NCBI GenBank assembly: GCA_001683735.1
Contig: LUGG01000006.1
Location: forward strand, 620,001 to 684,000
Length of the DNA stretch: 64,000 nucleotides
DNA from: Grifola frondosa
Taxonomy: Eukaryota > Basidiomycota > Agaricomycetes > Polyporales > Grifolaceae
Reading direction: 5' to 3'
The translations under genes were made by a program, and so were the position numbers. Shown piece by piece: positions 11,690-46,248 of the stretch (positions within the stretch are counted from its first letter, which is position 1; the number at the start of each line of letters is the position of its first letter). The notes beneath the pieces are model-generated. The model was not told the DNA's origin, ran no database searches, and saw only the letters and a program-made list of their open reading frames with translations.

Positions 11690-12444
11690 GTCAGGGAATG
11701 CAGTAGGAATGTGTTGGTATCTGCCAAGTGGGCCGACGATCGTCATTCCATTCGTGAGTGTGGCTGGTCTTCACGAATGCCTCGTCCTTGTAGATCTCAG
11801 GCAGGGGCTCGCAGTCGCACAGCAACTTCTTCAGCCTGAACAATGGCAGTCCACGCCCTGGCCATCCGCCACCCATGCTGCGTACTGCAGGTGCCGTGTC
11901 ACAGCGCGGTGAAACAGCAACGCATGGTGCTCGTCCTGACAATGTCATCAACCACAGTTATGCCTTTCGAAATTTGCTGCAATGCGCACCCTCTCCGTGG
12001 GGTTGAGCATGGCCTCTGCCCATGCCTTGCTCTCTTTGCTCGTGCTACGGATCACCTCTGCCCATGCCTTGCTCTCTTTGCTCGTGCTACGGATCACCTC
12101 TGTGCGCCCGAGCTGGAACTTGCGCATTTGCACGCTCTCGTAGATATGCCTGGCCTGCTGAACATCTTGTGGAATGCGAGCTGCTTCACGAGCTGTGCCC
12201 ACGTGTTGGGGATGCCTTGATTTTCTTGATGTACTCCTTGCCGTACCCCTCATAGTGGAGGATCTGTTGCAGAACGGGTATTAGAGGTACGTAGTATCAA
12301 ACCGTCTGAGAGGGCCAAACCTCCATGTCATGCTCGGCGACAAGCTCGTCGAAGTTCCTCTCCGCCTGATTGATATATAAGTGCGACTTCACATCAAGCA
12401 TGAAGGGCAGCTCCCTGGTGCCTCCAAGTCCCTACCCATCTCTG
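11690..12444 (-). pseudogene. Carnitine O-acetyltransferase, C-terminal part, pseudogene
   Basis: Minus-strand fragments follow the order of the choline/carnitine O-acyltransferase family: an FDELVAEHDMEV segment (about 12315-12352), a probable intron ending just before the ILHYEGYGKEYIKK segment (12215-12262), the YESVQMRKFQLGRTEVIRS motif (around 12080-12150), and a GQGVDCH-GLKKLL segment (about 11815-11870), then PEIYKDEAF. The family transfers acetyl groups between CoA and carnitine in mitochondria or peroxisomes. The reading frame is broken several times, and the motif region carries a tandem duplication (12015-12098). The N-terminal part lies at 24318-25160. The two are separated by copy A, so the 4-bp CCGT is present on both sides. 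Confidence 0.8.
12015..12098. repeat. 42-bp tandem duplication inside the acyltransferase pseudogene
   Basis: Two adjacent identical 42-bp units duplicate in frame the EVIRSTSKESKAWA segment (minus strand), directly after the GRT of the YES...GRTEVIRS motif. A length divisible by three keeps the frame, but the duplication changes a conserved acyltransferase region. Confidence 0.85.
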
Positions 12445-12448: not shown

Positions 12449-13696
12449 TGATACTCTCTTGCCGACTCTGACCTATAAAATAACAAATATGTATCCTATA
12501 GATCGTAAAGTCAGTAGCAACGAGATATAGCGCGAATGGGCTCTCGATTTCTCGCAGAGGTCCCTTGCACCGAGTTGTGTAACTAGCTATGCTCGCGAGT
12601 CGCACGTGAATCGTACTTCTCTGAGGTAGGGGAAACGCAGAAGAAGATAAAAGTAAATGCTTAGCAATATCGGGTCTTCGCGCACTCCACGCGTATCGCA
12701 ACTAAAGAGGTCTCCTTGATCGTAGGTTCGAAGTCGCAGCGTGTATGATGGTTTATCCGTATAGTCGCAAGTATCGCGGTCGCAGTTTCGCAGTGAGAGG
12801 AGAGCTTTTAGTGAAGAGTGGTCGCGATCGCAAGTGAAGCCGGCGATTTTGAACTCTGTACTTGTGGGGGAAACTCGTGTCTGATTCGTATCGTACTATA
12901 CATGAGTTTTTATGAATTATTCTACGTATCTGAAACGCGAAACGTTCTCGGTACGAATTAAAAGCCGATCGCAAGTGCCTTGCGACCAACATATCCTGTG
13001 AAATACGATAGCTGGTAAGGGAAAGGTCAATCGCTATAATGTCAAAAGTCTGGGATGAAACGCGACACAAGTAAGCTACGATAAATCAAGGAAATGGAAA
13101 TACAGAATGTATGGTGGCTGAACTGCTACACCTGCCACGTATAGCCATGCACTGCACCGGCACGCGAAACATGCGAAGGTACGCGTGAGTAGACGCACGG
13201 CCTTCTCGGGCGTTTATTGTAAAGGGGAACGTGTCGCACCGGTAGTTCGGTCCGGAATATACCGCAAACAATAGTGGCGACGTCGCGTTGACGTGTAGAA
13301 TCGCGTGGCGCAGCTAAATCAGCTATGGGAAGAATCTAAGGCTGGGCAGGAGTCGAAAGGACTGGGATCAGAGTTTGACGCGTGTGATCCGTCAGGCAGA
13401 CGCATGTAGGACGCCGAACAATTGGGTCGCAAGTGTTTTTGACACGTCGCACGTCGCCATGAGGTGAATTTGAATTCGAATATGACGTATCGCGTGAATA
13501 TTGAGTATGCGAAGTATCGGTAGGTGATGCTCGGCTTGCTGCGCGTCGCAACGAGGCGTAGAGTTATTGTTCAGATGACCTGTAACGACGTAATCGCAGG
13601 TGCGATCCTATTGAAATAGCGTGTAGCTCCTGGGTGATCGTCAGAGGTTCGAAATGCGAAAATGATTTGATCCGCGTAGTTAAGGCCATCGTATCA
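12449..13696 (-). repeat. Copy A LTR (3' LTR relative to gag-pol)
   Basis: 1248 bp bounded by TGATAC and GTATCA. In gag-pol orientation the U3 side is at the right (towards 13696) and borders the accessory gene. The R/U5 side is at the left and is almost the same as in copies B and C. It contains four TCGCAAGT octamers (12765, 12828, 12969, 13427). Confidence 0.95.
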
Positions 13697-13732
13697 TCTC
13701 CTCCTCACTGAAATCCGGACCGTCCTCGGTCC
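13697..13732 (-). promoter_or_regulatory. Copy A terminal polypurine tract plus stem-loop
   Basis: Read on the minus strand, a GGACCG-AGGA-CGGTCC stem-loop (13717-13732) is followed by GATTTCAGTGAGGAGGAGA, which ends exactly at the 3' LTR. The purine run GTGAGGAGGAGA (13697-13708) is in the right place to prime plus-strand DNA synthesis. A second, sequence-variant copy of the same module lies at 16144-16179. Confidence 0.85.
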
Positions 13733-13863
13733 GCGCGGGTTGCGACGGTTAAGTTGATACTTGTCGCAAGTGATCTTCTATGATGGTGCTTCCTTTCTGT
13801 ACCGCGCCACGTCGTCCCTTCTTCCGCATCACAACTCGGTTTTCCCTGCCTGTCTTCCCCGCT

Positions 13864-15818
13864 ATGCAGCCCATCCAAGACCAATCTGACTCCGATTTGC
13901 TCAACGAGCTTCGAGATTTGAGTAGGGCTGGTTTGGCCCAAGTGACCGAGAAAGCGAACCGTCGTGCTCTAGATGCTATCGCTGAGTTGTCCGTGCCCAC
14001 TTTGACCATGGAGGGACGGTTATTACACGGACAGCGTCTTTCTCGTGCCATTGTAAGTAGTTTCATCTAATCGCAAATGCAAGGGTAATGAAGTCGTGAT
14101 TTAGAGAATGTTACGGCCTGGTGCTTCGCCTGGTCGGATGGCTGAAATCGATGGTTGGATCGCGACCGCTCGTCGCGCATTCGAGGGTATTTATCACCAG
14201 GAGTGGCTGTCATGGGGAGTTGAGTTCATGGACCGACCGGATACCGCTGCCTTAGAGGCTGAGTTGATGCGTCGACTTGATGCGGATTCGACGTCATCCG
14301 TGGGTAGCGCGGTGCTACGTACGTTGTCCTTGGAAGAAGACCCAGGCAATGTAGCGGAAGTCGTCGCAGGTCCTAATATTGCGACCTTGGTTCATGCTAA
14401 AGGGGGAGCTGATGGAGGAGAGACGTCTGGCGCAGTTGGAGAGATCGAGGAGGGTGAAGAGGAATTAGAAGAAGAGGGAGAAGATGAAGAGGAAGAAGTG
14501 GACCAACTGCACGACTCTCCGCCGCGCAAGCCAGCTACGAAGCGTCGCAAGACAACGAAGGCTGAACAGGAGAGGCCTACGACTGTTGTCGCACCTACTG
14601 ACGTGGCTTCCGTGCGATCTAGCCTTCTCGACCAAGGTTTTACTCTGCTGGCTAATCAGGACGACGACGGCCGTATCAAACGTGTCCTCGTTGCTGGTGG
14701 AGCAGGCAAGCGTAACAAGCAGGGGGTCGATGTAGGGGATGTGGTAGGACCGGTGAGTTCATGTTTCGCATATTTTTCTTTGATCTTGCTGAGTTTTTAA
14801 ACAGTGCGACCATTGTTACGATCTTCAGCGTCCTTTGTTGTGTGCGATTCGACCCCTGGATCGTCTTTGCGAACGCTGCAAACATGATAAGAAGGGTTGT
14901 ATGTGGAAAGGATTGACTCGCGATGCGCTTGCAGGTACGTTCTTTTCGTCCAAATACTTGATTCTTCTACTTGAAAGATTGTTGTCTTGATAGTGCGCGC
15001 TCGTCAGCACCAAGGCGTGCGCTTCTCTACTAGCTCGGATACTCATAGTAGTGTATCGCCCGGGTCCATTCGTATTCCTCCTCGCAAGTCAGCTGGGGCC
15101 TCAATTCCTTCTCCGTTGACTGCTGCTGCTCCTGCTGCTGCGGTGAGAACTCTCCCACCTCTTCCAATGGTGATGATAGAGACGTTGCCTCCAAAGGCTC
15201 CGGTGGTCCGTCGCACGACGCGTTTATCGACTGCAAAGCCTCCAGTCGTCGCAAGTATTCCAGTCTCAGAGGTTCCAGCGGGACCTTTGGAGGCGTCGAA
15301 GGCGGTCTCTAAGAAAACCAAGCGTGCCATGAAGGGGAAGGGAAAGAAAACGGTCCCTCCTGTCGCGACGCCGAGAGCTCCCTCTCCTGTCGATCCTGTC
15401 GACGAACCGTTCCTCCCATCTCCCGACATCAATCCGTTGTTCTTCGCGTCTCCTGCACCCTCACCAGTGCCATCCGCTAGTATGGCTGGCCCATCGCAAG
15501 TGCATGCTCGTCGTCGCGTGCCTCCCATCAATGATCCACACGCTCCTCCACCTTTTGTCCGCGATCCTTTGGCTGCAACTCGTTACCGCGTCTTGAGCGA
15601 GCGCGGCTACGTTTTAGACATGGAGATCGATGTTCGCGATACAGAGGTATTTCGCATCAACGAAGAACTGCGTCGTATCGTAGAAGATGCTGGTGGAGAT
15701 CCTGACGCATGGTCTGGCTCTGCCCGCCTCAGTGAGTATGCGCTTTGGCTCGCTAGTGACGTGTGGTGACTCGTCCCTAGGTCGTTCAAAGAAGCCTTCC
15801 GATGGAGGTCGCAAGTAA
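13864..15818 (+). CDS. Antisense accessory gene of copy A, putative zinc-cluster protein (580 aa)
   Basis: Five exons: 13864-14052, 14105-14752, 14805-14934, 14994-15731, 15781-15818. All introns are 49-59 nt with GT-AG ends, and the joined frame is open for 581 codons including TAA. Residues 1-63 form an N-terminal helical segment. A conserved W-A-RRAF-G-Y-WLSWG region and ALEAELMRRLD follow, then a strongly acidic E/D run (about residue 180) and a basic KRRKTTK patch. Cys residues 280, 283, 292, 301, 304 and 311 form C-X2-C-X8-C-X8-C-X2-C-X6-C. Then come a Pro/Ser/Ala-rich linker and a helical C-terminus with an AGGDPDAW motif. It lies opposite to gag-pol, between pol and the 3' LTR, so its transcription must begin in or near the LTR U3. 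The cluster resembles Zn(II)2Cys6 domains, with a longer first loop (X8, usual X6). Function unknown; nuclear DNA binding is inferred only. Confidence 0.85.
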
Positions 15819-16143
15819 ATATTGCGATACTTGAATGAATCGCGACTTTCGTCGCATGGATTTTGGACCGTGTTTCTTCTCTTTACTTTTTGCCTGGTGT
15901 ATCCTGATGTTTGCGTCTCCCATATGCTCTCCTTCGCCTGCATAGTCGTCTTGCTCCTTGTCGCGTATCTGTACAAAGTATGGTATCTCCTTTTCCTCGG
16001 CCTGCGATCGCTATATCTGTATCTGTAGGATATATTTAAATGAAAATGAATTCTTAGACGAAATATCTGTCTAAAATAAGATAAAGAAAAATCGCGAAAA
16101 TTATGCCATAGAAACTCGCTCATATTGCGTCGTCTTAAGACCT

Positions 16144-16179
16144 TCTCCTCCTCACTGAAATTCTGACTGTCCCCAGTCA
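16144..16179 (-). promoter_or_regulatory. Copy A internal polypurine tract plus stem-loop
   Basis: On the minus strand a TGACTG-GGGA-CAGTCA stem-loop (16164-16179) is followed by GAATTTCAGTGAGGAGGAGA. The arrangement is the same as next to the LTR (13697-13732), but the stem sequence differs in paired positions so pairing is kept. It could act as an internal plus-strand primer like a central polypurine tract, or mark the edge of the accessory module. Confidence 0.8.
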
Positions 16180-16430
16180 TCGTCTCAGTGCTGAGTAAGA
16201 ATCGCAGTCGCGACGCGATTATAATCATCGCAAGTGAAAGAATAAACTCAACAGGAAATATGGTACAAGGGGAAAGGCTCAGTTGTTCTTCATTGCCGTA
16301 AAACCCCTGTGAGGCTTTGCGCGACTGTCGCAGTGACTATCGCGACTTACATGAAACACTATAAGTACAGAAAAATGGTAAGCATATACAAAATGTCTGA
16401 TAGGTAAGGAAAAGTATGCGAATCGCAAAT

Positions 16431-19400
16431 TCATTCTTGAGGAAGATCTTCTTCATCCTCTGCCTCAATGTGCTCCATATCGTCACGTATTTCTTCGTCA
16501 TCTCCTTGCGATGTGACTTCGCGCATTTCTCGCAGACGCTCTTCATCGATATCTAGTAGTGCCTGTGGGACTGCGATCGATTTTCGCGCGAAGAATGGAA
16601 TGACTCTGAATGCTGCGATGGGTCTGTCGAATACTGTGCCATCGAGCTCTGCAAGGATGTAGGCTCCTCCGCGATTTCTTGCTAAACAACTAGCGGTCCA
16701 AGATACCGCGGTCGCATCTTGCGATTAAGTGACTTCTCGATCTGCGTGTGTCGCATGAGTACTAGATCGCCATGTTTGAAGTCGAAATCGCGTATTGTGG
16801 TCTTGTGTTCGCGCTCGAATCGAACTGCTGCTGCAACGCGTGCTTCGAAGACTTTGGAATTGAGTCGCGCTACTGTTCGTGTCTCTTCTGAAGTGCGATC
16901 GCGCGTCTGGCGATGAGGTCTGTGGTCGACATGATGGAATCGGGAGGTGGTTGTAGGTACGTCGCTTCAGAGATGTCGAGAGGAATGATAGGATGTGTTC
17001 CTGTCGCTGCGAAGTAAGGAGAACAACCCATGCGTTTGCGCACCGTGATTCTTTCTGCCCAAAATACTGAGTGCACCACTTGCGACCATCGCTTTTGGTC
17101 TCCATCTGCGGCCTTGAAGAGTGCTCCTCGAATATCGTAGTGCGATCGCTCGACGATACCATTTGCGCGTGAATTGTATCCGCTAATGCGAATGTGGTGG
17201 ACGTGGTATTTCTTCGCAAGGTACTCAGTTGCCTTCACGAATGCAGTGCCATTGTCCGTGACGATCTCGCTGATTGCGCCCCATCTGCAAAGGATATCTT
17301 CGAAGATGAAATCGCCAAGAGTCTTCGCTGTCTCCGCGCGAAGTGCTCGAAATTCGGGATAGAATGTGAGGGAATCGCGACCTTGAACGAGGTATTTGTA
17401 ACCACCCGACGGAGGGAGGTGCATTGTGTCAAGGTGAACTTTCGCGAATAGAGGTGCTGGCATTGCGACGACTGGGGAATGAGGACCTGTCGCGACTGTC
17501 GCTGTTGGCAGATTAGACATGTCGAACAAACCACACGATGTCCTTTAACGTATGAGGCCACCAGAATCGTTCGCAGATAGATGCTCCGTCGCATAGACTC
17601 CTCGATGGCCTATTTCATCGTGACATGCTCGCAGAATATTGAGACGTCCTTCGGGTGCGATGACAAGTTTGTGTGCTCCGTGTGGATCGCGCTTCCAAAG
17701 TCTGTCAGAGTCGACGAAGAATTGTACTGCGAACTTAACAAAAGTCTCGTAGTCTGCATCTGTGAATTGTGCTGGTCGCTCGAGTGTCCTATGCCAGTCG
17801 CGAACAAGTAGAAGTCTTTGATCGAGTGCGATGGCTTGAATACTACGAGGTACGATGTCGTAGGAATCTACGGGTGGGTCCTGCGACTCTGCTTCTCCTT
17901 CTGGTACTTGCGACGAGTGTCGCGAGTTGGTGTGGTTCATCGATGGTGTATATTGAAACAAGTGAGTCGCGGGTGACTTTCTGTGTAGGATGGGGATTGA
18001 CGAGGTGCGCGAAACCGTGTATGCGATCTATCCAGTCCTCGAAGTCGTCCTCAGGTTCGTCTTCATCGTCTGGTTGCCTAGGTCTCCGCGACAGTCCGTC
18101 TGGTCCGTGATTGGTGCCAGGAACGTGAACAAGGGTGAAGTGAAATGTGAGGATTGCGACTATCCATCGATTGATGCTTGCGGACGGTGCGATGTCTGGG
18201 TTCTGTAGCATGCCTTTGATATAGCGTGCGTCGACTTCTATGACCAAGTTGCGAACACCTATGAGATACAGTCGCAACGCGCGTAGTGCGCGAAAGAGTC
18301 CATAAATTTCGAGCTTGGGTTGCGAGAATCGCGACTCGCGATCATTTAGTGTGATGATGAGAATCGGTTGTAGTATCGGATTCGCGGGTTCTCGAGGTCG
18401 CATTGACATAGATGGAATCCGACTGCGATGTATGAGTGTCGACTGCTAGGTAACTGGCGAGTCGGATGTGTAATCGATCGCGCGTAAGGCTGGAGACTCT
18501 AGAGTGCTTGTTTAAGATCCTCTTGCGCTTGAATCTGTCGCGGACCGAATTCGAATGGTATATCTTTGCGCGTAAGATAGACGAGAGGATGTGCGCGTTG
18601 TGCGAAATTGCGAATGAAGATTGAACAACTCCTATGGTACCTAGAAAAGCCCTGACCTCCGACAAGTCTTTGCAAGGGCCCCAATTTTCGATCGCTTTGA
18701 CCCGCGATTCTTCTGGAAGTCTGCCTTTGTAGGTACAGCGATGGCCAATGACGAGTGTTTCCTCTGCGACTAAGAGGGATTTCGTGCCAGAGAACGTACC
18801 ACCACAGTATCGCATGCGCTGTACGATCCTGCTGATGCTATGCATATGTTCCCAGACAAATCTACGAATGCCCGGATTTGTCGCGATGACTTCGTAGCCT
18901 CCATCTGGTAGTTCGTAGCGTGTCTCTGGGCCGCGAACGGGACGTCGTCGATGTAGGGAATTGTAATATGTGGAATTTCGGGCTGTAGGATGTATGTGAC
19001 ATCGTCGTGGAAGATGGGTACTGCGTTTGTCCATCCCATCGGAAGAGTCACCAATCGCAAGCGCCATAGGGTGTCTGGAAGGATGTGAGGTCTCGCGACG
19101 ACTCTGCGATTTCTCGCTCATCGTATCCGACATAAAGATCTAGCATACCGCCGCACGCGCGATTGCCAAATTTCTCTGCGATGTGTTCAGGAATTGGTGG
19201 GACTCCCGAGTGTTGAATCGTAACTGCGTTTAATGGCTCGAGACTGTGTACGAGTCGCAACGCTTTGCCATCCTTTTTGAGGACGCAAAACCATCGCGAT
19301 CGATAGGATGAGTTGGATGGTTCGTAGACTCCTGCCTCGATTTTCTTCCTGATGATGCGACAGACTTCGTCGAAGATCCCCGGGGGATGGGGATATTGCG

Positions 19401-22400
19401 CTGAACCCAGGGCTTGTGTTCGATGACAGGAATTTCGACTGGAGGGAAGAAGTCCTGCCTAAACCGACCTCGTTCCGTGTCATCCCATGCGAAGCCTTCG
19501 TGCTGTTTGCACATGAAATCATCGATGAGATCAAGCTCAGCTGGCCAGAGAAATCCCGTATTGTGTGCTTTGCGAAATGCGTCGCGACGTGCTTGGGTAT
19601 ATCGGCCTGTGGGTTCGAAGGTAGGTGGATTCGGATCGAGTGGTGGCATATCTGCGAGTGGGTCTCCTTGGATGTTGCGTACGATGCGAAAGCGATTGGG
19701 TAGCGTCGCAAGTACTGGTCGCACTTTGAGTGCGACTGGCTTGTATTTCTTCTTCTGCGTGACAAACGCAGATGTCGAATCTTGTCGCGGAGGGAAGAGA
19801 GTTCGATTATCTGGGGAATGGGAGAGAGTGCGAAATCGCGAAGGGTAGGGAACCGCAAATCTTGATATGTTTTGTATTTCTTGAATCGATATTGTCGCAC
19901 CGGTGGTATCTTGAATCTGTGAAGCAGAAATAGATTCTGAAGCGAAAGCGAAGTCGCAAGCTGAAAGATATGTGCTTTTTAGGTTTTCTATATCAGAAAG
20001 GATGCGATCGCAGAGAAGATGAAATGACTGGACGCGCGCGACTGGGTATCATAGTCCAAAACTAGAGCCAACTCTCCTTGATCGTGAATCAAATCCTCGA
20101 GTTCGCTGTAAAATTTCGGTCATGGGTCTCGTGGTGTCGCTAGGTTGCGACGTCTTTTGAATCGCGGGGGTCCTCGTCGCAACGTCGGGACTGTCACTGT
20201 TGATAAGTATTCGGACAGCGTATCGTGATTGTTTGGTCTTCGTTCGCGAAGTTGCGAACGACACTCTCCGTTAAAACGTCGAATGGTCGCCCTAGTAAGA
20301 TTCATATGCAGCCTGTCGAATGACGTGAATCTGGAGGTAAAGGACGATATCAGAGACCTGGAAAGGGACGTTGCGAACAAGTCCAAGAGACTGATCAACT
20401 TCGCCATTAGCTGACTGCATGTTAAGGCGTATGGTGGGGTCGTAATGAGTCCTAGCGCGTGACAGACTTCCTCCGACATTGAGATGATTTGCGATCCTGG
20501 GTCTATAATCCCTTCGACGTCCTCCTTGTTGTCTACGAGACCATTGATGGATCGCAGGGCATGCGACTCTTTTGCGACCGTCAAAACCTCCGGTGTTTCG
20601 CCAGGTTTGAGGCCGCGCAAGTACGTCTCGTAGGGATCTGGTACGACCATGACACCTGGTCGCAGTGGTTGGCCTTCGAAACTAGTTGCGATGCAGGAGG
20701 AATGTGCGATGAGGAATTTGCGACGTCTGGAAGTTCATCTGTATCGTCCTCTATTATATCTGCATGCTCGCGACTGGTTTGTCAGTGGTTTGAACGCGAC
20801 GAGGAGTTACTGCATCGCGATATTTCGCGCGGACTTCTGGAGAGATGGATAAAAGCTCCTCAGGTGTCAGCGTAAGTAGCGGGGCTTTCATGGACCTATT
20901 GAAGACGTCCTCGCTATTCTAGGATCTTGGACAGGCGCAGATGTTTTGTAAGCTGCATCTTTGTCCTTGGGAGGTTTGGGTAGTACTCCCAGGTTGCGAT
21001 CCTGAGGCGGAGCGTACGTCGCATCGCGAGCTTGCGAATATGGATGGATAGGTGCTGGAACCGTCGCAGGTGACGGTGTCGATGATGCCGCAGGAGCGGG
21101 TGCTGATACACTAGGAGGATTGGTAACCTGCGATGCCTCTGTGGGTTCGTGCGTAGGAGGGTTATCGACGCGATTGACTGCTGTCGGTATTGGAGGTCGC
21201 GCTGGAAGGTGCCTAGGAATTTCTACACCGTCAAAGGCCCTTTGCCTTTTCTGAGTGCGAAGATTTCTCTTTCCAAGGCTGTGATCGATCTTCTCTCGTG
21301 AGCTGGTATGATGATGCGACATTGGGATTAGAAGTGATCTCGAAAATCATTTGTCCTGCCGGCGGGTTCGTATTCGAACTAAGTTGTCCTCGCGCGAGAT
21401 TGTTTGGGTGGTGCGATGCCATTCGAGGATGCGATCGCGCATGGTGGCACCAGTTACATTGCGAGGAACGAAGGCTCCCGAAGGTAGGACTACCTTGTTC
21501 TCGATGTTGCGGCGTAACACCTATGTCAATATCTTCCTGAACTTTCGGCACCCTCCTATTACGTGCCCAAATTCTCCGCAGTAGTGACAACCTCCCGAAG
21601 TCGTGTTTGGATTCGCGTTCGCAATATTGGAGACTCGCGATGTCTGTGGTTGCGCATTAGCAAAGGCCATGTTCGCTGACGTTGCGAAGGCTTGTGCGAT
21701 GGTGCGAGTGACGGTTTCGATGAGAGAAGTGAAGTCTTCCGTCTTGATAGTACCTGGCGGTAATGCTGTGGATGTGGTCGCAGCTGCGGGTGTACCCTGC
21801 GCTGGTGCATCGACTCGAGTACCATGTAGAACGTAGTGCGCGGCATCTAAAATATGTCGCAACGGCCAGAAGTCATCAGGATTGTGGTCAGGGTACTTAA
21901 GCTGGAGTCGCGAGTGTACAGACTGCCAAAGAGTTGGTGGAAAGGTTTATAGAACGTCCTCGCGATTTCACTTGTCGAAAGCCTCTGTCGACTACGAAGG
22001 AACTCTGTGATCTTGAAAAACTCCCTGTAATAGTCTCCCAGATCCGTGCCGTAGAAATGCCCAATCGCGATCGTTCTCCTATAAGTAAATCAAGATCCTG
22101 CAACGTATATTTCCTGTTCGCATCGGCAGTAGGATAAAATGCTTTGACCTCCTCGCCATTCTTCGTACGTCTTTGTCGCATCCGCATATGAAGGTAATTG
22201 ATCCCACATGTCTGCGACGTCGATGGGTGCATACCGTACAGCATGCCTCTTCTTCAATTCGTTGGTTGGTGCGGTCGCAAGTGTGGTAAAGAGATATTCG
22301 AGATCTTCAAAGAATCGCAAAAGCGTTCGCGGTTCTTTTGGATCGAAAACTGGCGCGGTATGGTGTCCGCGCGCGGGCATTGCTGTTGCCATGTTAGGAG

Positions 22401-22986
22401 CTGGTGGATTTACAAGAGGTGGTTGAGGAATAGGGGGTTGAGGCGGTATGTTCTGCGTTGTCGCAGGTGGAACTGGTCTAGGTGCTACTGGAGGGCGCGA
22501 TGCTCGCTGGAATGGTCGCGATACAGGAGTGTCTGGGTTTACAGAAGATGTTGATTGTGACCGACGCTGCTGTTGTCTCGCGTAGTTGCGAGTGATAGGT
22601 CGCGGAAGACGCGAAGGTCCTGCCGTGGTTTGCGACTGAGATGGTTCCGGAATGATAGGCGATTCCTCTTCTAATTTCTCGTGCAGCTCTGTCGCGCGAT
22701 CGAGAATAGAAGTATCTTCACCTAGTCTTAGGCCCGAACGAAGTGGAAGTGATGCACGAGTGTGTGTGGAAGCTGGAGTGGGAGATTCAGGCGATTGCGA
22801 CCGGGCTGGAATATCGTCTGCTACTGGAGGTAGTTGTAATTCTGGTGGGGATGACTGCGACGTGATGGAAGATGGAACTGATGTAAGTGGGCTAAGTTGT
22901 GATAGCGGTGTCTGGTAGACAGTTTCGTCCGCAATTGTGCCTAAACTCGAAGAGAGCTTGATACAGAGATATGAACGCGATCGCAA
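16431..22986 (-). pseudogene. Copy A gag-pol polyprotein, frameshifted
   Basis: On the minus strand in order: Pro/Ser-rich gag N-terminus (22986-22400), gag body, CCHC zinc knuckle C-X2-C-X4-H-X4-C (about 21551-21592), aspartic protease with IIDPGSQI (about 20480-20510; DPG in place of the usual DTG/DSG), reverse transcriptase with IPYIDD (about 18945-18965), RNase H, an HHCC-DDE integrase (VTDNGTAF near 17240, NGIVERSH near 17150) and an acidic C-terminal tail ending in TGA at 16431. The frame is interrupted by many one- or two-base indels compared with copies B and C, for example the missing G before the YIDD region and changes near 20146, 20200 and 20590. No ATG begins the gag frame: it opens after a TAG just upstream of 22986, so the true start is not known. 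The gag-pol frame is not functional as written. Confidence 0.9.
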
Positions 22987-23041
22987 GTGTTTTCTCTGCT
23001 AAAAACTCCAGTAGGGACCTTGAGCGAAGGATACGAAAGAA

Positions 23042-23060
23042 CCCCTCGCGGTGGGCTCCA
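23042..23060 (-). promoter_or_regulatory. Copy A putative primer-binding site
   Basis: Four bases (TTTC) after the 5' LTR on the minus strand comes TGGAGCCCACCGCGAG, starting with the TGG expected opposite a tRNA CCA end. The same sequence and spacing occur in copies B (28411) and C (55475). The matching tRNA was not identified. Confidence 0.65.
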
Positions 23061-23064
23061 GAAA

Positions 23065-24313
23065 TGATACTCTCTTGCCGACTCTGACCTATAAAATAAC
23101 AAATATGTATCCTATAGATCGTAAAGTCAGTAGCAACGAGATATAGCGCGAATGGGCTCTCGATTTCTCGCAGAGGTCCCTTGCACCGAGTTGTGTAACT
23201 AGCTATGCTCGCGAGTCGCACGTGAATCGTACTTCTCTGAGGTAGGGGAAACGCAGAAGAAGATAAAAGTAAATGCTTAGCAATATCGGGTCTTCGCGCA
23301 CTCCACGCGTATCGCAACTAAAGAGGTCTCCTTGATCGTAGGTTCGAAGTCGCAGCGTGTATGATGGTTTATCCGTATAGTCGCAAGTATCGCGGTCGCA
23401 GTTTCGCAGTGAGAGGAGAGCTTTTAGTGAAGAGTGGTCGCGATCGCAAGTGAAGCCGGCGATTTTGAACTCTGTACTTGTGGGGGAAACTCGTGTCTGA
23501 TTCGTATCGTACTATACATGAGTTTTTATGAATTATTCTACGTATCTGAAACGCGAAACGTTCTCGGTACGAATTAAAAGCCGATCGCAAGTGCCTTGCG
23601 ACCAACATATCCTGTGAAATACGATAGCTGGTAAGGGAAAGGTCAATCGCTATAATGTCAAAAGTCTGGGATGAAACGCGACACAAGTAAGCTACGATAA
23701 ATCAAGGAAATGGAAATACAGAATGTATGGTGGCTGAACTGCTACACCTGCCACGTATAGCCATGCACTGCACCGGCACGCGAAACATGCGAAGGTACGC
23801 GTGAGTAGACGCACGGCCTTCTCGGGGCGTTTATTGTAAAGGGGAACGTGTCGCACCGGTAGTTCGGTCCGGAATATACCGCAAACAATAGTGGCGACGT
23901 CGCGTTGACGTGTAGAATCGCGTGGCGCAGCTAAATCAGCTATGGGAAGAATCTAAGGCTGGGCAGGAGTCGAAAGGACTGGGATCAGAGTTTGACGCGT
24001 GTGATCCGTCAGGCAGACGCATGTAGGACGCCGAACAATTGGGTCGCAAGTGTTTTTGACACGTCGCACGTCGCCATGAGGTGAATTTGAATTCGAATAT
24101 GACGTATCGCGTGAATATTGAGTATGCGAAGTATCGGTAGGTGATGCTCGGCTTGCTGCGCGTCGCAACGAGGCGTAGAGTTATTGTTCAGATGACCTGT
24201 AACGACGTAATCGCAGGTGCGATCCTATTGAAATAGCGTGTAGCTCCTGGGTGATCGTCAGAGGTTCGAAATGCGAAAATGATTTGATCCGCGTAGTTAA
24301 GGCCATCGTATCA
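23065..24313 (-). repeat. Copy A LTR (5' LTR relative to gag-pol)
   Basis: 1249 bp bounded by TGATAC and GTATCA, matching 12449-13696 with one G of difference. It contains the four TCGCAAGT octamers at 23381, 23444, 23585 and 24044. The gag-pol promoter should lie in its right (U3) part, but no TATA box was assigned with confidence. Confidence 0.95.
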
Positions 24314-27293: not shown

Positions 27294-28406
27294 TGATACG
27301 CACGCGATACGCACCCCAATATCTTTGCGACTTTATTGCTTATTTTTGCGCAGTACAGCAATGATGCAAAAGGGACATGTTCGCAATATTGACGCATCAT
27401 ACGAACGCGAAGAAGCTATTCGCAGTCCAGAAATAGCGCGGTTCTTGTCTTCGCGACACACACGTGCTGCGATCGGACCGCTTAACTTCGCATCTTAACA
27501 ATAATGTGTCGTTGGGAGTTCCCGGACCCTCGCGAACACTTTGGACATGCGTCGCAGCCACGCATCATAGAAGTGTCATCGTATCGCAGCCACTATTGTT
27601 ATTAGGCGCGTACCGGTCCGCATCTGAAACATGATGCATCATACCTCCTTTAGACGCCCCGAGAAGCCCGCGCGTCTACCCACATATACAGTCGCATCCT
27701 TCCCGTACCAGGTGCGGTGCATATCTAAACATGGCAAGTTTCGTATTCAGCCACCGTATTTCCTGTGTTACTGTTTCCCTGGACTGTCGTGATTTACTTG
27801 TACCGCGTTTCATTATTGACATTGTGGCTGATCCTTTCCCTACTAGTTTACGATATTTCACAGGATATGTTCGCCGCGATATAGTTGCGACAGCCTTACC
27901 GCATACATCGCAATCATTTTGCATTTCAGATACGTAGAATAGTTCATAAAAACTCATGTATAGTACGATACGAATCAGACACGAGTTTCCCCACAAAGTA
28001 CAGAGTTCAAAATCGCCGGCTCTACTTGCGATCGCGACCACTCTTCACTAAAGCTCTCCTCTCACTGCGAAACTGCGACCGCGATACTTGCGACTATACG
28101 GATAAACCATCATACACGCTGCGACTTCGAACCTACGATCAGGAGACCTCTTTAGTTGCGATACGTGCGGAGCGCGCGAAGAGCCGATATTGCTAAGCAT
28201 TTACTTTTATCTTCTTCTGCGTTTCCCTACCTCAGAGAAGTGCGATTCACGTGCGACTCGCGAGCATAGCTAGTTACACAACTCGGTGCAAGGGACCTCT
28301 GCGAGAAATCGAGAGCCCATTCGCGCTATATCTCGTTGCTACTGACTTTACGATCTATAGGATACATATTTGTTATTTTATAGGTTGGAGTCGCAAGAGA
28401 GTATCA
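27294..28406 (+). repeat. Copy B 5' LTR
   Basis: About 1113 bp from TGATACGCACGC to GAGAGTATCA. The right half matches (reverse complement) the A/C LTRs. The first 200-250 bp do not visibly match them. Confidence 0.95.
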
Positions 28407-28410
28407 TTTC

Positions 28411-28428
28411 TGGAGCCCACCGCGAGGG
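28411..28428 (+). promoter_or_regulatory. Copy B putative primer-binding site
   Basis: TGGAGCCCACCGCGAGGG begins four bases (TTTC) after the 5' LTR, the same as in A and C. The complementary tRNA was not identified. Confidence 0.65.
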
Positions 28429-28483
28429 GTTCTTTCGTATCCTTCGCTCAAGGTCCCTACTGGAGTTTTAGCAGAGAAAACAC

Positions 28484-31400
28484 TTGCGATCGCGTTCATA
28501 TCTCTGTATCAATCTCTCTTCGAGTTTAGGCACAATTGCGGACGAAACTGTCTACCAGACACCGCTATCACAACTTAGCCCACTTACATCAGTTCCATCT
28601 TCCATCACGTCGCAGTCATCCCCACCAGAATTACAACTACCTCCAGTAGCAGACGATATTCCAGCCCGGTCGCAATCGCCTGAATCTCCCACTCCAGCTT
28701 CCACACACACTCGTGCATCACTTCCACTTCGTTCGGGCCTAAGACTAGGTGAAGATACTTCTATTCTCGATCGCGCGACAGAGCCGCACGAGAAATTAGA
28801 AGAGGAATCGCCTATCATTCCGGAACCATCTCAGTCGCAAACCACGGCAGGACCTTCGCGTCTTCCGCGACCTATCACTCGCAATTACGCGAGACAACAG
28901 CAGCGTCGGTCGCAATCAACATCTTCTGTAAACCCAGACACTCCTGTATCGCGACCATTCCAGCGAGCGTCGCTCCTCCAGTAGCACCTAGACCAGTTCC
29001 ACCTGCGACAACGCAGAACATACCGCCTCAGCCCCCTATTCCTCAGCCACCTCTTGTAAATCCACCAGCTCCTAACATGGCAACAGCAATGCCCACGCGC
29101 GGACATCATACCGCACCAGTTTTCGATCCGAAGGAACCGCGAACGCTTTTGCGATTCTTTGAAGATCTCGAATATCTTTTACCACACTTGCGACCGCACC
29201 AACCAACGAATTGAAAAGAGACACGCTGTACGGTATGCACCCATCGACGTCGCAGACATGTGGGATCAATTACCTTCGTACGCGGATGCGACAAAGACGT
29301 ACGAAGAATGGCGCGAAGAGGTCAAAGCGTTTTATCCTACTGCCGATGCGAACAGGAAATATACGTTGCAGGATCTTGATTTACTTATAGGAGAACGATC
29401 GCGATTGGGCATTTCTACAGCGGCGGATCTAGGAGACTATTATAGGGAGTTTTTCAAGATCACAGAGTTCCTTCGTAGTCGACAGAGGCTTTCGACAAGT
29501 GAAATCGCGAGGACGTTTTATAAGCCTTTCACGCCAACTCTTTGGCAGTCTGTACACTCGCGACTCCAGCTCAAGTATCCTGACCACAATCCTGACGACT
29601 TCTGGCCGTTGCGACATATTTTAGATGCCGCGCACTACGTTCTACATGGTACTCGAGTCGATGCACCAGCGCAGGGTACCCGCAGCTGCGACCACATCCA
29701 CAGCATTACCGCCAGGACTATCAAGACGGAAGACTTCACTTCCCTCATCGAAACCGTCACTCGCACCATCGCACAAGCCTTCGCAAGTCAGCGAACATGG
29801 CCTTTGCTAATGCACAACCACAGACGTCGCGAGTCTCCAATATTGCGAACGCGAATCCAAACACGACTTCGGGAGGTTGTCACTACTGCGGAGAATTCGG
29901 GCACGTAATAGGAGGGTGTCCGAAAGTCCAGGAAGATATTGACATAGGTCGTATTCGTCGCAACATCGAGAACAAGGTAGTCCTACCTTCGGGAGCCTTC
30001 GTTCCTCGCAATGTAACTGGTGCCACCATGCGCGATCGCATCCTCGAATGGCATCGCACGCACCCAAACAATCTCGCGCGAGGACAACTTAGCTCGAATA
30101 CGAACCCGCCGGCAGGACAAATGATTTTCGAAATCACTTCTAATCCCAATGTCGCATCATCATACCAGCTCACGAGAGAAGATCGCATCACAGCCTTGGA
30201 AAGAGAAATCTTCGCACTCAGAAAAGGCAAAGAGGCCTTTGACGGTGTAGAAATTCCTAGGCACCTTCCAGCGCGACCTCCAATACCGACAGCAGTCAAT
30301 CGCGTCGATAACCCTCCTACGCACGAACCCACAGAGGCATCGCAGGTTACCAATCCTCCTAGTGTATCAGCACCCGCTCCTGCGGCATCATCGACACCGT
30401 CACCTGCGACGGTTCCAGCACCTATCCATCCGTATTCGCAAGCTCGCGATGCGACGTATGCTCCGCCTCAGGATCGCAACCTGGGAGTACTACCCAAACC
30501 TCCCAAGGACAAAGATGCAGCTTACAAAACATCTGCGCCTGTCCAAGATCCTAGAATAGCTGAGGACGTCTTCAATAGGTCCATGAAAGCCCCGCTACTT
30601 ACGCTAACACCTGAGGACTTTTATCCATCTCTCCAGAAGTCCGCGCGAAATATCGCGATGCAGTAACTCCTCGTCGCGTTCAAACCACGGACAAACCAGT
30701 CGCGAGCTACGCAGATATAATAGAGGACGATACAGATGAACTTCCAGACGTCGCAAATTCCTCATCGCACATTCCTCCTGCATCACAACTAGTTTCGAAT
30801 GGCCAACCACTGCGACCAGGTGTCATGGTCGTACCAGATCCCTATGAGACGTACTTGCGTGGCCTTAAACCTGGAGAAACACCGAGGTGTGACGGTCGCA
30901 AAAGAGTCGCATGCTGCGATCCATCAATGGTCTCGTAGACAAAAGGAGGACGTCGAAGGGATTATAGACCCAGGATCGCAAATCATCTCAATGTCGGAGG
31001 AAGTTTGTCATGCGCTAGGACTCATATACGACCCCACCATACGCCTTAACATGCAGTCAGCTAATGGCGAAGTTGATCAGTCTCTTGGACTAGTTCGCAA
31101 CGTCCCTTTCCAGGTTTCCGACATCGTCCTTTACCTCCAGATCACGTTATTCGACAGGCCGCATACGACATCTTACTAGGACGACCATTCGATGTTCTAA
31201 CAGAGAGTGTCGTTCGCAACTTCGCGAACGAAGACCAAACAATCACGATACGCTGTCCGAATACTTATCAGACAGTGACAGTCCCGACGTTGCGACGAGG
31301 ACCCCCGCGATTCAAAAGGCGATCGCAACCATGCGACACCACGAGACCCATGACCGAAATTTTACAGCGAACTCGAGGATTTGATTCACGATCAAGGAGA

Positions 31401-34400
31401 GTTGGCTCTAGTTTTGGACTATGATACCCAGTCGGCGCGTCCAGTCATTTCATCTTTCTCTGCGATCGCATCCGTTTCTGATATAGAAAACCTAAAAAGC
31501 ACATATCTTTCAGCTTGCGACTTCGCTTTGCTTCAGAATCATTTCTGCTTCACAGATTCAAGATACCACCGGTGCGACAATATCGATTCAAGAAATACAA
31601 AACATATCAAGATTTGCGGTTCCCTACCCTTCGCGATTTCGCACTCTCTCCCATTCCATAGATAATCGAACTCACTTCCCTCCGCGACAAGATTCAACAT
31701 CTGCGTTTTCACGCAGAAGAAGAAATACAAGCCAGTCGCACTCAAAGTGCGACCAGTACTTGCGACGCTACCCAATCGCTTTCGCATCGTACGCAACATC
31801 CAAGGAGACCCACTCGCAGAATGCCACCACTCGATCCGAATCCACCACTTTGTCCCACAGGAGATATACACAAGCACGTCGCGACGCATTTCGCAAAGCA
31901 CACAATACGGGTTTCTCTGGCCAGCTGAGCTTGATCTCATCGATGATTTCATGTGCAAACAGCACGAAGGCTTCGCATGGGATGACACGGAACGAGGTCG
32001 GTTTAGGCAGGACTTCTTCCTCCAGTCGAAATTCCTGTCATCGAACACAAGCCCTGGGTTCAGCGCAAATCCCCATCCCGCCGGGGATCTTCGACGAAGT
32101 CTGTCGCATCATCAGGAAGAAAATCGAGGCAGGAGTCTACGAACCATCCAACTCATCCTATCGATCGCGATGGTTTTGCGTCCTCAAAAAGGATGGCAAA
32201 GCGTTGCGACTCGTACACAGTCTCGAGCCATTAAACGCAGTTACGATTCAACATTCGGGAGTCCCACCAATTCCTGAACACATTGCAGAGAAATTTGGCA
32301 ATCGCGCGTGTGGCGGCATGCTTGATCTCTATGTCGGATACGATGAGCGAGAAATCGCAGAGTCGTCGCGAGACCTCACATCCTTCCAGACACCCTATGG
32401 CGCGTTGCGATTGGTGACTCTTCCGATGGGATGGACAAACGCAGTACCCATCTTCCACGACGATGTCACATATATCCTACAGCCCGAAATTCCACATATT
32501 ACAATTCCCTACATCGACGACGTCCCCGTTCGGGCCCAGAGACACGCTACGAACTGGCAGATGGAGGCTACGAAGTCATCGCGACAAATCCGGGCATTCG
32601 TAGATTTGTCTGGGAGCACATGCATAGCATCAGCAGGATCGTACAGCGCATGCGATACTGGGTGGTACGTTCTCTGGCACGAAATCCCTCTTAGTCGCAG
32701 AGGAAACACTCGTCATTGGCCATCGCTGTACCTACAAAGGCAGACTTCCAGAAGAATCGCGGGTCAAAGCGATCGAAAATTGGGGCCCTTGCAAAGACTT
32801 GTCAGAGGTCAGGGCTTTTCTAGGTACCATAGGAGTTGTTCGATCTTCATTCGCAATTTCGCACAACGCGCGCATCCTCTCGTCTATCTTACGCGCAAAG
32901 ATATTCCATTCGAATTCGGTCCGCGACAGATTCAAGCGCAAGAGGATCTCAAACAAGCACTCCTGAGTCTCCAGCCTTGCGCGCAATCGACTACACATCC
33001 GACTCGCCAGTTATTCTAGCAGTTGACACTCATACATCGCAGTCGGTTCCATCTATGTCAATGCGACCTCGAGAACCCGCGAATCCGATACTACAACCGA
33101 TTCTCACATCACACTCAATGATCGCGAGTCGCGATTCTCGCAACCCAAGCTCGAAATTTATGGACTCTTTCGCGCACTACGCGCGTTGCGACTGTATCTC
33201 ATAGGTGTTCGCAACTTGGTCATAGAAGTCGACGCACGCTATATCAAAGGCATGCTACAGAACCCAGACATCGCACCGTCCGCAAGCATCAATCGATGGA
33301 TAGTCGCAATCCTCACATTTCACTTCACCCTTGTTCACGTTCCTGGCACCAATCACGGACCAGACGGACTGTCGCGGAGACCTAGGCAACCAGACGATGA
33401 AGACGAACCTGAGGACGACTTCGAAGACTGGATAGATCGCATACACGGTTTCGCGCACCTCGTCAATCCCCATCCTACACAGAAAGTCACCCGCGACTCA
33501 CTTGTTTCAATATACACCATCGATGAACCACAACCAGACTGCGACACTCGTCGCAAGTACCAGAAGGAGAAGAGAGTCGCAGGACCCCCCGTAGATTCCT
33601 ACGACATCGTACCTCGTAGTATTCAAGCCATCGCACTCGATCAAAGCTTCTACTTGTTCGCGACTGGCATAGAACTCGAGCGACCACACAATTCACAGAT
33701 GCAGACTACGAGACTTTTGTTAAGTTCGCAGTACAATTCTTCGTCGACTCTGACAGACTTTGGAAGCGCGATCCACACGGAGCACACAAACTTGTCATCG
33801 CACCCGAAGGACGTCTCAATATTCTGCGAGCATGTCACGATGAAATAGGCCATCGAGGAGTCTATGCGACGCGAGCATCTATCTGCGAACGATTCTGGTG
33901 GCCTCATACTTAAAGGACATCGTGTGTGTTTGTTCGCACATGTCTAATCTGCCAACAGCGACAGTCGCGACAGGTCCCATTCCCCCAGTCGTCGCAATGC
34001 CAGCACCTCTATTCGCGAAAGTTCACCTTGACACAATGCACCTCCCTCCGTCGGGTGGTTACAAATACCTCGTTCAAGGTCGCGATTCCCTCACATTCTA
34101 TCCCGAATTTCGAGCACTTCGCGCAGACAGCGAAGACTCTTGGCGATTTATCTTCGAAGATATCCTTTGCAGATGGGGCGCAATCAGCGAGATCGTCACG
34201 GACAATGGCACTGCATTCGTGAAGGCAACTGAGTACCTTGCGAAGAAATACCACGTCCACCACATTCGCATTAGCGGATACAATTCACGCGCAAATGGTA
34301 TCGTCGAGCGATCGCACTACGATATTCGAGGAGCACTCTTCAAGGCCGCAGATGGAGACCAAAAGCGATGGTCGCAAGTGGTGCACTCAGTATTTTGGGC

Positions 34401-35028
34401 AGAAAGAATCACGGTGCGCAAACGCATGGGTTGTTCTCCTTACTTCGCAGCGACAGGAACACATCCTATCATTCCTCTCGACATCTCTGAAGCGACGTAC
34501 CTACAACCACCTCCCGATTCCATCATGACGACCACGACCTCATCGCCAGACGCGCGATCGCACTTCAGAAGAGACACGAACAGGTAGCGCGACTCAATTC
34601 CAAAGTCTTCGAAGCACGCGTTGCAGCAGCAGTTCGATTCGAGCGCGAACACAAGACCACAATACGCGATTTCGACTTCAAACATGGCGATCTAGTACTC
34701 ATGCGACACACGCAGATCGAGAAGTCACTTAATCGCAAGATGCGACCGCGGTATCTTGGACCGCTAGTTGTCTTAGCAAGAAATCGCGGAGGAGCCTACA
34801 TCCTTGCAGAGCTCGATGGCACAGTATTCGACAGACCCATCGCAGCATTCAGAGTCATTCCATTCTTCGCGCGAAAATCGATCGCAGTCCCACAGGCACT
34901 ACTAGATATCGATGAAGAGCGTCTGCGAGAAATGCGCGAAGTCACATCGCAAGGAGATGACGGAAGAAATACGTGACGATATGGAGCACGTTGAAGCAGA
35001 GGATGAAGAAGATCTTCCTCAAGAATGA
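28484..35028 (+). pseudogene. Copy B gag-pol polyprotein, frameshifted
   Basis: Same order as in A: Pro/Ser-rich gag (28530-28980), gag body (29200-29760), CCHC knuckle (about 29878-29920), protease with IIDPGSQI (about 30958-30985), RT with IPYIDD (about 32505-32525), RNase H (about 33000-33400), integrase (HHCC near 33830-33960, VTDNGTAF near 34194, NGIVERSH near 34290) and acidic tail ending TGA 35026-35028. The frame is broken at many points, for example near 28975, 29190, 29690, 31805 and 34120. The indels are mostly not shared with A or C, so they arose after the copies separated or in assembly. Confidence 0.9.
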
Positions 35029-35279
35029 AATTGCGATTCGCATACTTTTCACTCACCTATCAGACATTTTGCATATGCTTATTATTTTTCTGTACTTATA
35101 GTGTTTCATGTAAGTCGCGATAGTCACTGCGACAGTCACGCAAAGCCTCACAGGGGTTTTACGGCAATGAAGATAACTGAGCCTTTCCCCTTGTACCATA
35201 TTTCTTGTTGAGTTCACTCATTCACTTGCGATGATTATAATCGCGTCGCGACTGCGATTCTTACTCAGCACTGAGACAA

Positions 35280-35315
35280 TGACTGGGGACAGTCAGAATT
35301 TCAGTGAGGAGGAGA
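35280..35315 (+). promoter_or_regulatory. Copy B internal stem-loop plus polypurine tract
   Basis: TGACTG-GGGA-CAGTCA (35280-35295), then GAATTTCAGTGAGGAGGAGA ending at 35315. It lies between the pol stop (35028) and the 3' end of the accessory gene (35653). Confidence 0.8.
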
Positions 35316-35652
35316 AGGTCTTAAGATGACGCAATATGAGCGAGTTTACATGGCATAATTTTCGCAATTTTTCTTCAGCTGATTTTCAAGCAGATATTCG
35401 TCTAAGGATTCATTTTCATTTTAAATATAACCTACAGATATATAAAGACAAGGATATCGCGATTACAGACCAAAGAAAACAAGACGCCATACATTGTACA
35501 AGATATGTGATGATGGACGAGAGGATTCCGCAAGCGAACGATAGGCATAAGAACAGCCGAAGAAGATGCGACACATACAGCGAAGTGTAGAAAAAGAGAG
35601 ACATGGTCCAGATATCCGTGCGACACAAAGTCGCGAACGCCTCGAAGAAATT

Positions 35653-37562: not shown

Positions 37563-37628
37563 TGTGGAAGGGCGAAGAAAGGATAGGCGCAGAGATAGCG
37601 AAGAGCAGGGTAATCGCACGCAGAAAGA

Positions 37629-37635
37629 CTTATAG
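37629..37635 (-). promoter_or_regulatory. Possible TATA box of the copy B accessory gene
   Basis: CTATAAG on the minus strand, 67 bp upstream of ATG 37562. A similar CTATAAG lies upstream of the copy C gene. No counterpart was clear in copy A. Confidence 0.35.
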
Positions 37636-37751
37636 CCCGCAGAAGAACAAGGCACTGGCTGTCGCCCAACCTTAAAGTCGCATTCCCAAATTTAGTACGA
37701 GAAGAAGCGCGAAGGCCAGCAGGATCACACGTGTCGAAGGAAGACTCCGAA

Positions 37752-37787
37752 GGACCGAGGACGGTCCGAATTTCAGTGAGGAGGAGA
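37752..37787 (+). promoter_or_regulatory. Copy B terminal stem-loop plus polypurine tract
   Basis: GGACCG-AGGA-CGGTCC (37752-37767), then GAATTTCAGTGAGGAGGAGA ending at 37787, immediately before the 3' LTR. Confidence 0.85.
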
Positions 37788-43542: not shown

Positions 43543-43551
43543 TTACCCCCT

Positions 43552-46110: not shown

Positions 46111-46146
46111 TCTCCTCCTCACTGAAATCTGGACCGTCCTCGGTCC
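46111..46146 (-). promoter_or_regulatory. Copy C terminal polypurine tract plus stem-loop
   Basis: On the minus strand GGACCG-AGGA-CGGTCC (46131-46146), then ATTTCAGTGAGGAGGAGA up to the LTR, as in A and B. Confidence 0.85.
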
Positions 46147-46241
46147 GCGCGGAGTGTAATGCCGTAACGAATGAATTGTTCCTCGTCGCAACGTCGGGAC
46201 TGTTCGGTGTTTCCTAATTTGAACAGTGCTGTGAATTCGCT

Positions 46242-46248
46242 CTATAAG
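46242..46248 (+). promoter_or_regulatory. Possible TATA box of the copy C accessory gene
   Basis: CTATAAG 90 bp upstream of ATG 46338, between the LTR end and the gene. The same word occurs upstream of the copy B gene. Confidence 0.35.

Follow-up and report, generated by a model that had tools for sequence, protein, structure and literature searches.

Several long terminal repeat (LTR) retrotransposons of plants carry an antisense open reading frame (aORF) of the type called aORF-3R, including Grande (gene23), RIRE2, Retand (TRP28) and PvRetro13 (according to the accessible parts of PMC7264820 and PMC11963269). In fungi, the extra gene brtn lies antisense in the interval between pol and the 3′ LTR of the Boty gypsy-type elements of Botrytis cinerea (Zhao et al. 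2011, as summarized in the available text of PMC7264820, PMC8365987 and PMC4227169) and was reported in both B. cinerea and Sclerotinia sclerotiorum (PMC7264820, available text). HTLV-1 HBZ and other antisense retroviral genes are named in the accessible part of PMC11963269. Here, a 64,000-nt stretch of the Grifola frondosa genome (the window, positions 620001-684000 of contig C6 in an assembly of 39 Mb and 64 contigs) was found to hold three LTR elements, A, B and C, each of which carries a five-exon gene on the strand opposite to gag-pol, in the interval between pol and the 3′ LTR. A first-pass annotation of the window had mentioned aORFs in plant LTR elements, which are indeed described, and had known of no described equivalent in fungi; brtn is one.

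The present gene shares with brtn a fungal gypsy-type host, the position and the orientation. For brtn, the available descriptions mention no introns, Cys-rich exon, doubled polypurine tract (PPT) or exchange of versions, unlike what is found here. It resembles the plant aORF-3R genes in position, orientation and occurrence in the majority of copies; for these plant genes, the available parts of those reports suggest a role in the nucleus or in DNA binding. The present gene differs from them by four introns, by versions far more diverged than gag-pol and by the lack of TRP28 (PF04195), which had no match in the A, B or C proteins at E up to 1. HBZ, whose transcript is spliced, is likewise an antisense gene near a 3′ LTR and can be likened to it by position only. 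Literature searches over titles and the beginnings of abstracts, most subscription papers being beyond reach, returned no basidiomycete element with an antisense gene that contains introns. As far as this literature goes, the intron-rich antisense gene, the exchange of its deeply diverged versions against a uniform gag-pol background, and the doubled hairpin-PPT around the gene are new.

In copy A, the gene occupies 13864-15818 on the plus strand, with exons at 13864-14052, 14105-14752, 14805-14934 (the Cys-rich exon 3), 14994-15731 and 15781-15818, and encodes 580 aa. The divergent gene of copy B (class II, see below) runs on the minus strand at 35653-37562, through exons 37392-37562, 36730-37338, 36547-36676, 35740-36495 and 35653-35693 (568 aa), and that of copy C on the plus strand at 46338-48243, through exons 46338-46517, 46572-47174, 47225-47354, 47413-48156 and 48206-48243 (564 aa). 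These coordinates and lengths are exactly those of the first-pass annotation, which had also placed four short GT-AG introns at matching positions: all 12 predicted introns are GT-AG, measure 46-59 nt and follow the phases 0, 0, 1 and 1 in each copy (intron 2 of B and intron 3 of C were picked from several frame-keeping options, the GT-AG alternatives that retain the Cys exon having the same phase). Because the proteins are only 31% identical between A and B over their whole length, and 70% between A and C, the shared five-exon structure is old. The introns probably survive because the gene is antisense in the genomic RNA, where they would not be spliced, a sound explanation already offered by the first-pass annotation.

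The gene is under selection, as had been proposed. Between A and C, the synonymous divergence (dS) is 1.23 and the non-synonymous divergence (dN) 0.21, giving a dN/dS of 0.17, and B compared with L052, L056 and L057 gives 0.128-0.134 at a dS of 1.1, in what is nearly a single comparison because these three copies are mutually near-identical. A and B yield 0.33 at a saturated dS (2.5), the dS between B and C is not finite, and the young twins are too close to inform (2 synonymous and 2 non-synonymous differences between A and C3, 1 and 3 between C and C21, ratio 1.05). Along the protein, the A-C ratio is 0.14 for residues 1-130, 0.18 for 131-225, 0.07 for 226-330 (which include the Cys exon), 0.32 for 331-450 and 0.07 for 451-580. 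A chance open reading frame is ruled out by the 564-580 open codons, by phases that match at 31% identity and by dN/dS of 0.13-0.17 at dS above 1. Hence the predicted antisense gene is a real, coding, spliced-type and selected accessory gene, and almost certainly a standing one in this lineage.

Open frames such as those of A, B and C are not general among further copies. Of ten additional coding sequences, C21 (the twin of C) has no frameshift, a single one occurs in C3 (the twin of A) and in C13, and two occur in C6b and in C1; rough counts, made against references only 55-66% identical, are 4 in C7b, 6 in C2, 8 in C12, 5 in C7a and 8 in C6c. Frame damage thus reaches the gene itself in several other copies.

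At least 14 near-complete pol matches (L009-L022) belong to the main family of A, B and C, together with further fragments, and there is a relative family at ~71% nucleotide identity to it, all these counts being lower bounds. The antisense gene was found in 13 of the 14 main-family copies (A, B, C and, by tblastn, 10 of the 11 further 3′ ends) and in 3 of 5 relative-family 3′ ends (L060, L061 and L063; not L062 or L064), the misses possibly lying beyond the 4.4-4.5 kb analysed per end. L058 shows neither the gene nor a PPT within 4.4 kb of 3′ end sequence. Position, antisense orientation and presence in most copies are those that characterize aORF-3R. L006 and L007, both part of a broken partial copy on C1, match the gene as well. 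Genome-wide, protein matches fall mostly at known element sites and in partial copies (C21:301-303 kb), with smaller matches at C16:697453, C2:3114883, C2:1366324 and C12:1487209. At C16:697453 and C2:3114883, it is the Cys exon of copy B that is matched, over a short length, and no pol match is listed on C16 or near the C2 site. The one larger match with no listed pol nearby, a candidate orphan or domesticated host gene at C2:3304300-3307300, turned out to be a decayed element 3′ end with PPT1. At C2:1361186-1366819, the pol of another gypsy family (plus strand) precedes by ~3 kb a class II antisense gene fragment (minus strand), which is either a nested insertion or a second carrier family.

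The gene versions are distributed over the elements in a strikingly mosaic manner. Among A, B and C, gag-pol is 93-100% identical per 200-base bin, and 94-100% in nearly every bin, but from ~65 bases past PPT1 through the gene identity is ~50-60% for A-B and B-C, where 50-60% is little above unrelated DNA in such an alignment, and 57-86% for A-C. In A-B and B-C, the low identity continues through the unique 3′ (U3) part of the LTR, and the repeat and unique 5′ (R-U5) part is back to ~94-98%. In copy A, this variable module spans about 13100-16080 (approximate limits, no strand) and comprises the antisense gene, its non-coding flanks and the U3 of the 3′ LTR; it diverges among copies, whereas the sequence to either side of it is near-identical. 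The A-C dS of 1.23 in the gene compares with 0.022 in pol, the pol dS between the two element families being only 0.96, and most pairs of module versions differ at 26-55% of nucleotides. Trees of the two parts disagree: B groups with C1 and C13 on pol (support 100/99), whereas on the module C1 and C13 group with C6b (100/100) and B lies outside, the module distance being 2.1% for C1-C6b and 26% for C1-B. Similarly, C7a belongs on pol with A, C3, C and C21 (100/99) and on the module with C6c (100/100, with a long-branch warning).

Two gene classes can be distinguished, class I (A, C3, C, C21, C7a and C6c) and class II (B, C6b, C1, C13 and C7b), and wherever the U3 is usable, its class agrees with that of the gene (10 of 10 copies; distances within classes at most 0.23 and 0.12, between them at least 0.52). 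In these ten copies, module and U3 distances are correlated (Mantel r 0.78, p 0.0002); adding C13, of which a non-corresponding part was compared, gives r 0.60 and p 0.0014. C13 was left out of the U3 count because ~545 bases of U3 are missing in both of its LTRs. These two LTRs (C13: L057, L041) are each 557 bases long and alike, without the ~545 bases of U3 present in C1, so that the short U3 was seemingly carried through a transposition. Elements whose gag-pol and R-U5 are near-identical have thus exchanged deep versions of the module, gene and U3. Such exchange of gene versions is unusual, though similar antisense genes are known. In Tnt1, U3 modules diverge and the coding part stays alike within a family (PMC1838419, accessible part); conserved coding DNA combined with divergent U3 classes is common to both cases, unlike the inclusion of an antisense protein gene in the exchanged block, which is found here.

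A hairpin joined to the tract TTTCAGTGAGGAGGAGA occurs twice per element, once adjoining the 3′ LTR (PPT2) and once just past pol (PPT1), with the gene between them. The hairpins, GGACCG-AGGA-CGGTCC at PPT2 and TGACTG-GGGA-CAGTCA at PPT1, differ in their stems, and both fold (predicted -6.7 to -12.9 kcal/mol), some PPT2 copies losing one pair. PPT1 is present in 13 and PPT2 in 11 of the 14 main-family copies, and both are present in 4 of 5 relative-family ends, where the two tracts carry an identical two-letter change. In copy A (minus strand), PPT2 lies at 13697-13713 beside the 3′ LTR, with its hairpin at 13717-13732, and PPT1 at 16144-16160, with its hairpin at 16164-16179, beyond pol and across the antisense gene from PPT2. 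In copy B (plus strand), the hairpin and PPT1 span 35280-35315 (PPT1 35299-35315) and the hairpin and PPT2 37752-37787 (PPT2 37771-37787); in copy C (minus strand), PPT2 is at 46111-46127 and PPT1 at 48562-48578. The doubling therefore places the antisense gene between two possible plus-strand primer sites, with the exchange border just beyond PPT1. The module may have arisen by the joining of two element ends. In L062 and L063 (C3, relative family), the PPT1-PPT2 spacing is ~1.4 kb as against the usual ~2.3 kb, and the antisense module is partly deleted.

Exon 3 is 130 nt long and encodes C-x2-C-x8-C-x8-C-x2-C-x6-C-x-W. Across all 9 aligned exon-3 sequences, one of which comes from the relative family, no change affects the six Cys, the W or an RD pair; the alignment omits L057, whose protein equals that of L056, and L051, which keeps the six Cys and the W and has a stop shortly after. 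In the copies listed for exon 3, AG stands upstream in 8 of 8 and GT follows the 130 nt in 6 of 8, and the pattern had no match in L007, L053, L055, L060 and L064. The canonical spacing of the fungal Zn2Cys6 cluster is C-x2-C-x6-C. The spacing in exon 3 is similar but distinct, and PF00172, the fungal Zn2Cys6 binuclear cluster, matched none of the three proteins or nine exon-3 sequences. The A protein also contains basic stretches (KRRK and KKTKRAMKGKGKK) with counterparts in the B and C proteins, which may be nuclear signals. Weak matches of the protein or the Cys exon (RanBP-type, TRAF2, HrpB1, DUF4611 and others) were taken as chance.

Among 5.8 billion predicted proteins, no homologue was found of the antisense protein (7996 candidates sharing most words scored) or of its Cys region (1167 candidates). 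A control query with the relative-family pol matched 1847 proteins at E up to 1e-10, one of the best 120, which were listed, being named from Mycena chlorophos, hence fungal elements are represented among the proteins searched. The absence of homologues is nevertheless weak evidence, because four introns break gene predictions and length limits drop fragments. No pol was found in viral contigs.

The Cys exon, the basic stretches, the position beside U3 and the class-wise link to U3 suggest that the antisense product acts in the nucleus to regulate the LTR of its own element, which is the leading mechanism although it falls somewhat short of probable. The product would be a nuclear, metal-binding regulator, with a Cys-rich exon, two basic stretches and acidic and proline-rich linkers, and would act on the promoter in the adjoining U3. 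Modules could be exchanged when two co-packaged RNAs are reverse-transcribed: at first-strand transfer, the new strand would pass from the R-U5 of one RNA to the 3′ end of the other, whose U3 and gene would be copied, and a template switch near PPT1 would return synthesis to gag-pol. A different version of regulator and U3 might then let an element evade regulation or silencing aimed at another version. Several observations weigh against this self-regulatory role. Inside a class, the divergence of the gene is poorly matched by that of U3 (C and C7a differ by 4% in U3 and by 47% in the module), and a strict regulator-target pair would not predict such loose tracking. The class signal also persists, more weakly, in pol itself (for module against pol in the ten copies, Mantel r 0.36 and p 0.0014), and class II as a single clade on pol was not rejected by the approximately unbiased test (p 0.058). 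In addition, no Pfam or PDB match marks the antisense protein or its Cys exon as DNA-binding, and the AlphaFold2 model of exon 3 is poor, with a predicted local distance difference test (pLDDT) score of 59.

The immunity regions of lambdoid phages comprise a regulator and its target, which differ between elements otherwise near-identical. By analogy with their way of working only, implying no membership and with a regulator role that is putative here, gene and U3 might form an exchangeable cassette of the immunity type: a self-encoded antisense regulator and the promoter it recognizes, of which one genome would retain several ancient versions because each new one escapes control aimed at the old, with the doubled hairpin-PPT as exchange border. 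This extension of the self-regulatory model is doubtful.

Alternatively, the product could be directed at the host, as a nuclear anti-silencing or chromatin factor that has diversified in an arms race against the defences of the host. The deep diversity of versions on a single gag-pol and the conserved basic stretches would fit, and the class-wise U3 link could be hitchhiking on one exchanged block; however, the A-C comparison reveals purifying selection in every region of the protein (dN/dS 0.07-0.32). Such a factor is unlikely, though it stands up better than the other alternatives. The presence of the gene in nearly all copies, like that of a needed element gene, is in turn what would be expected of a trans-acting transposition factor (for nuclear import of the cDNA, integration targeting, or RNA export or packaging) that is antisense by historical accident, and a role in retrotransposition has been proposed by the authors of the plant aORF work (PMC7264820, accessible part). 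A factor of this kind should be about as uniform as gag-pol, whereas module pairs are mostly 26-55% apart, which makes it rather unlikely.

A further possibility concerns the contrast on which the first-pass annotation had rested its argument for selection, an open gene beside a broken gag-pol. The gag-pol frames are indeed interrupted in A, B and C. However, the contrast does not serve as proof of selection, because gag-pol dN/dS is itself low, the lesions are mostly one-base deletions and the LTR pairs are gapped likewise. Over the stretches that are open in A and match the relative family, gag-pol dN/dS is 0.17-0.53 in 11 comparisons of A with main-family copies, which share A and are not independent (only 12 differences underlie the 0.53), and the comparison with the relative family gives 0.26; some of the codon stretches may be misframed, as 10 and 11 stop codons appear against dC8 and dC1. 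Purifying selection thus acts on gag-pol also, and its decay is not demonstrated.

Scored against the most frequent state over 5.27 kb, 12 gag-pol copies carry 161 private one-base deletions and 18 private one-base insertions, as well as 41 longer private indels and 344 private substitutions. Slippage in homopolymers was rejected as the sole cause of the deletions, 135 of the 179 private one-base indels lying outside runs. Fully independent random errors were rejected too: the 23 deletions shared by exactly two copies fall in close pairs (mean distance 0.0149), like 26 such substitutions (0.0160), against 0.0205 for all pairs, so part of the deletions is inherited. When an element inserts, its two LTRs should be identical. 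In the 11 comparable main-family pairs (14 tried), some compared over part of their length only, 85 substitutions and 94 gap openings with 109 gap columns separate them, reduced to 19 substitutions and 42 gap openings once the two oldest pairs (C and C6c) are removed; the three relative-family pairs read (of four tried) show 3, 21 and 8 substitutions with 0, 13 and 19 gaps. In the low-copy module, 11 indels and 52 substitutions were counted over 3597 non-coding columns and 8 and 34 over 6831 coding columns (counts summed over four pairs, two of which share L056), so that the indel:substitution ratio is nearly equal in the two, compared with 11 indels and 5 substitutions in 1181 columns at the pol ends of two twin pairs. 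Indels per substitution therefore track high copy number more than coding status. Another gypsy family is shortened in a similar way: of 14 other copies at 99-100% identity to the 1501-base query L067 (C5:1828400-1829900), 11 are shorter, by 1-14 bases, 2 are longer and 1 is of equal length, so that repeats of this assembly may be biased towards deletions.

The frame damage in gag-pol is likely to come from assembly error or late damage, residual assembly error being the first reading and a late deletion process the second. Besides the partly inherited two-copy deletions, the following go against assembly error: module indels are 2.6 times rarer per base in coding than in non-coding DNA (p 0.05), which weakly favours the first-pass annotation; the R-U5 of L056 and L052 differ by 29 substitutions and no indel; and the dC8 LTR pair by 3 substitutions and no gap. 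Frame damage in the repeats of this assembly should not be taken for decay without a second assembly. That the gene as a whole is merely as preserved as the rest of the element, the contrast being assembly error in high-copy DNA, is consistent with the one-base deletions and short gaps there and with the low gag-pol dN/dS. This account leaves unexplained the constraint on the gene, its conserved structure, its presence in two families and its mosaic versions; moreover, some deletions are common to near copies and some high-copy stretches have few or no gaps, so that error is not uniform. It is therefore improbable. Finally, that antisense transcription itself is functional, by RNA pairing with the genomic RNA as discussed for other retroelements (PMC7264820, accessible part), with the protein incidental, is very hard to credit, being largely refuted by the dN/dS of 0.13-0.17, the conserved intron phases and the Cys pattern.

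The three elements of the window are complete, lie within 44 kb (12449-56708), end in TGATAC..GTATCA and are flanked by 4-bp target-site duplications (TSDs). Element A (12449-24313, minus strand) has its 3′ LTR at 12449-13696 and its 5′ LTR at 23065-24313, differing by no substitution and 1 gap, with the TSD CCGT. Element B (27294-38905, plus strand) has LTRs at 27294-28406 and 37788-38905 (1 substitution, 6 gap openings; TSD GCGT), and element C (44865-56708, minus strand) at 44865-46110 and 55480-56708 (23 substitutions, 18 gap openings; TSD CCGG). Three insertions of one LTR family in 44 kb, with GC-rich 4-bp duplications, may reflect clustering or a target preference. A putative primer-binding site (PBS), TGGAGCCCACCGCGAGG, follows the 5′ LTR, and part of its complement occurs 70 times in the genome, the elements being included in this count. 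Paired TG..CA LTRs, TSD, putative PBS and PPT are as in a Ty3/gypsy LTR retrotransposon.

The predicted Ty3/gypsy domain order (protease, RNase H, integrase) is supported as well, most clearly in the relative-family copy L024, in which PF13650, PF17917 and PF17921 follow in that order and whose pol matches the Ty3-G Gag-Pol structure 7q5b. In the main family, Pfam identified the protease in L014, RNase H and rve in A and rve in B, the latter two copies below curated cut-offs; the reverse transcriptase domain itself had no match in the pol pieces scanned with Pfam. In element A, gag-pol lies at about 16725-22986 on the minus strand (approximate limits, frames interrupted), with an RNase H piece at 17843-18409 and an integrase piece at 16870-17529, just under the Pfam cut-offs.

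Elsewhere in the window, minus-strand open reading frames stand in a row between B and C (40425-44682), some of them overlapping; the longest, of 498 aa, had no match in a Pfam scan. A 31-bp unit is repeated in tandem ~37 times at 61501-62661, with a higher-order period of 93 bp, and an exact 42-bp unit is repeated 2.1 times at 12013-12102, ~350 bases off the end of element A.

The antisense genes of LTR elements in plants and in a fungus are so far without known function. In G. frondosa, a single genome combines an almost uniform gag-pol with several versions of such a gene, whose synonymous sites are saturated or nearly so, and with two matching U3 classes, which makes function directly testable; thanks to the introns and the antisense layout, expression can be tested simply from RNA. 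The likely place of exchange in reverse transcription is indicated by the doubled hairpin-PPT. If gene and U3 did form an exchangeable cassette, elements with one replication engine would fall into separate regulatory groups, like temperate phages.

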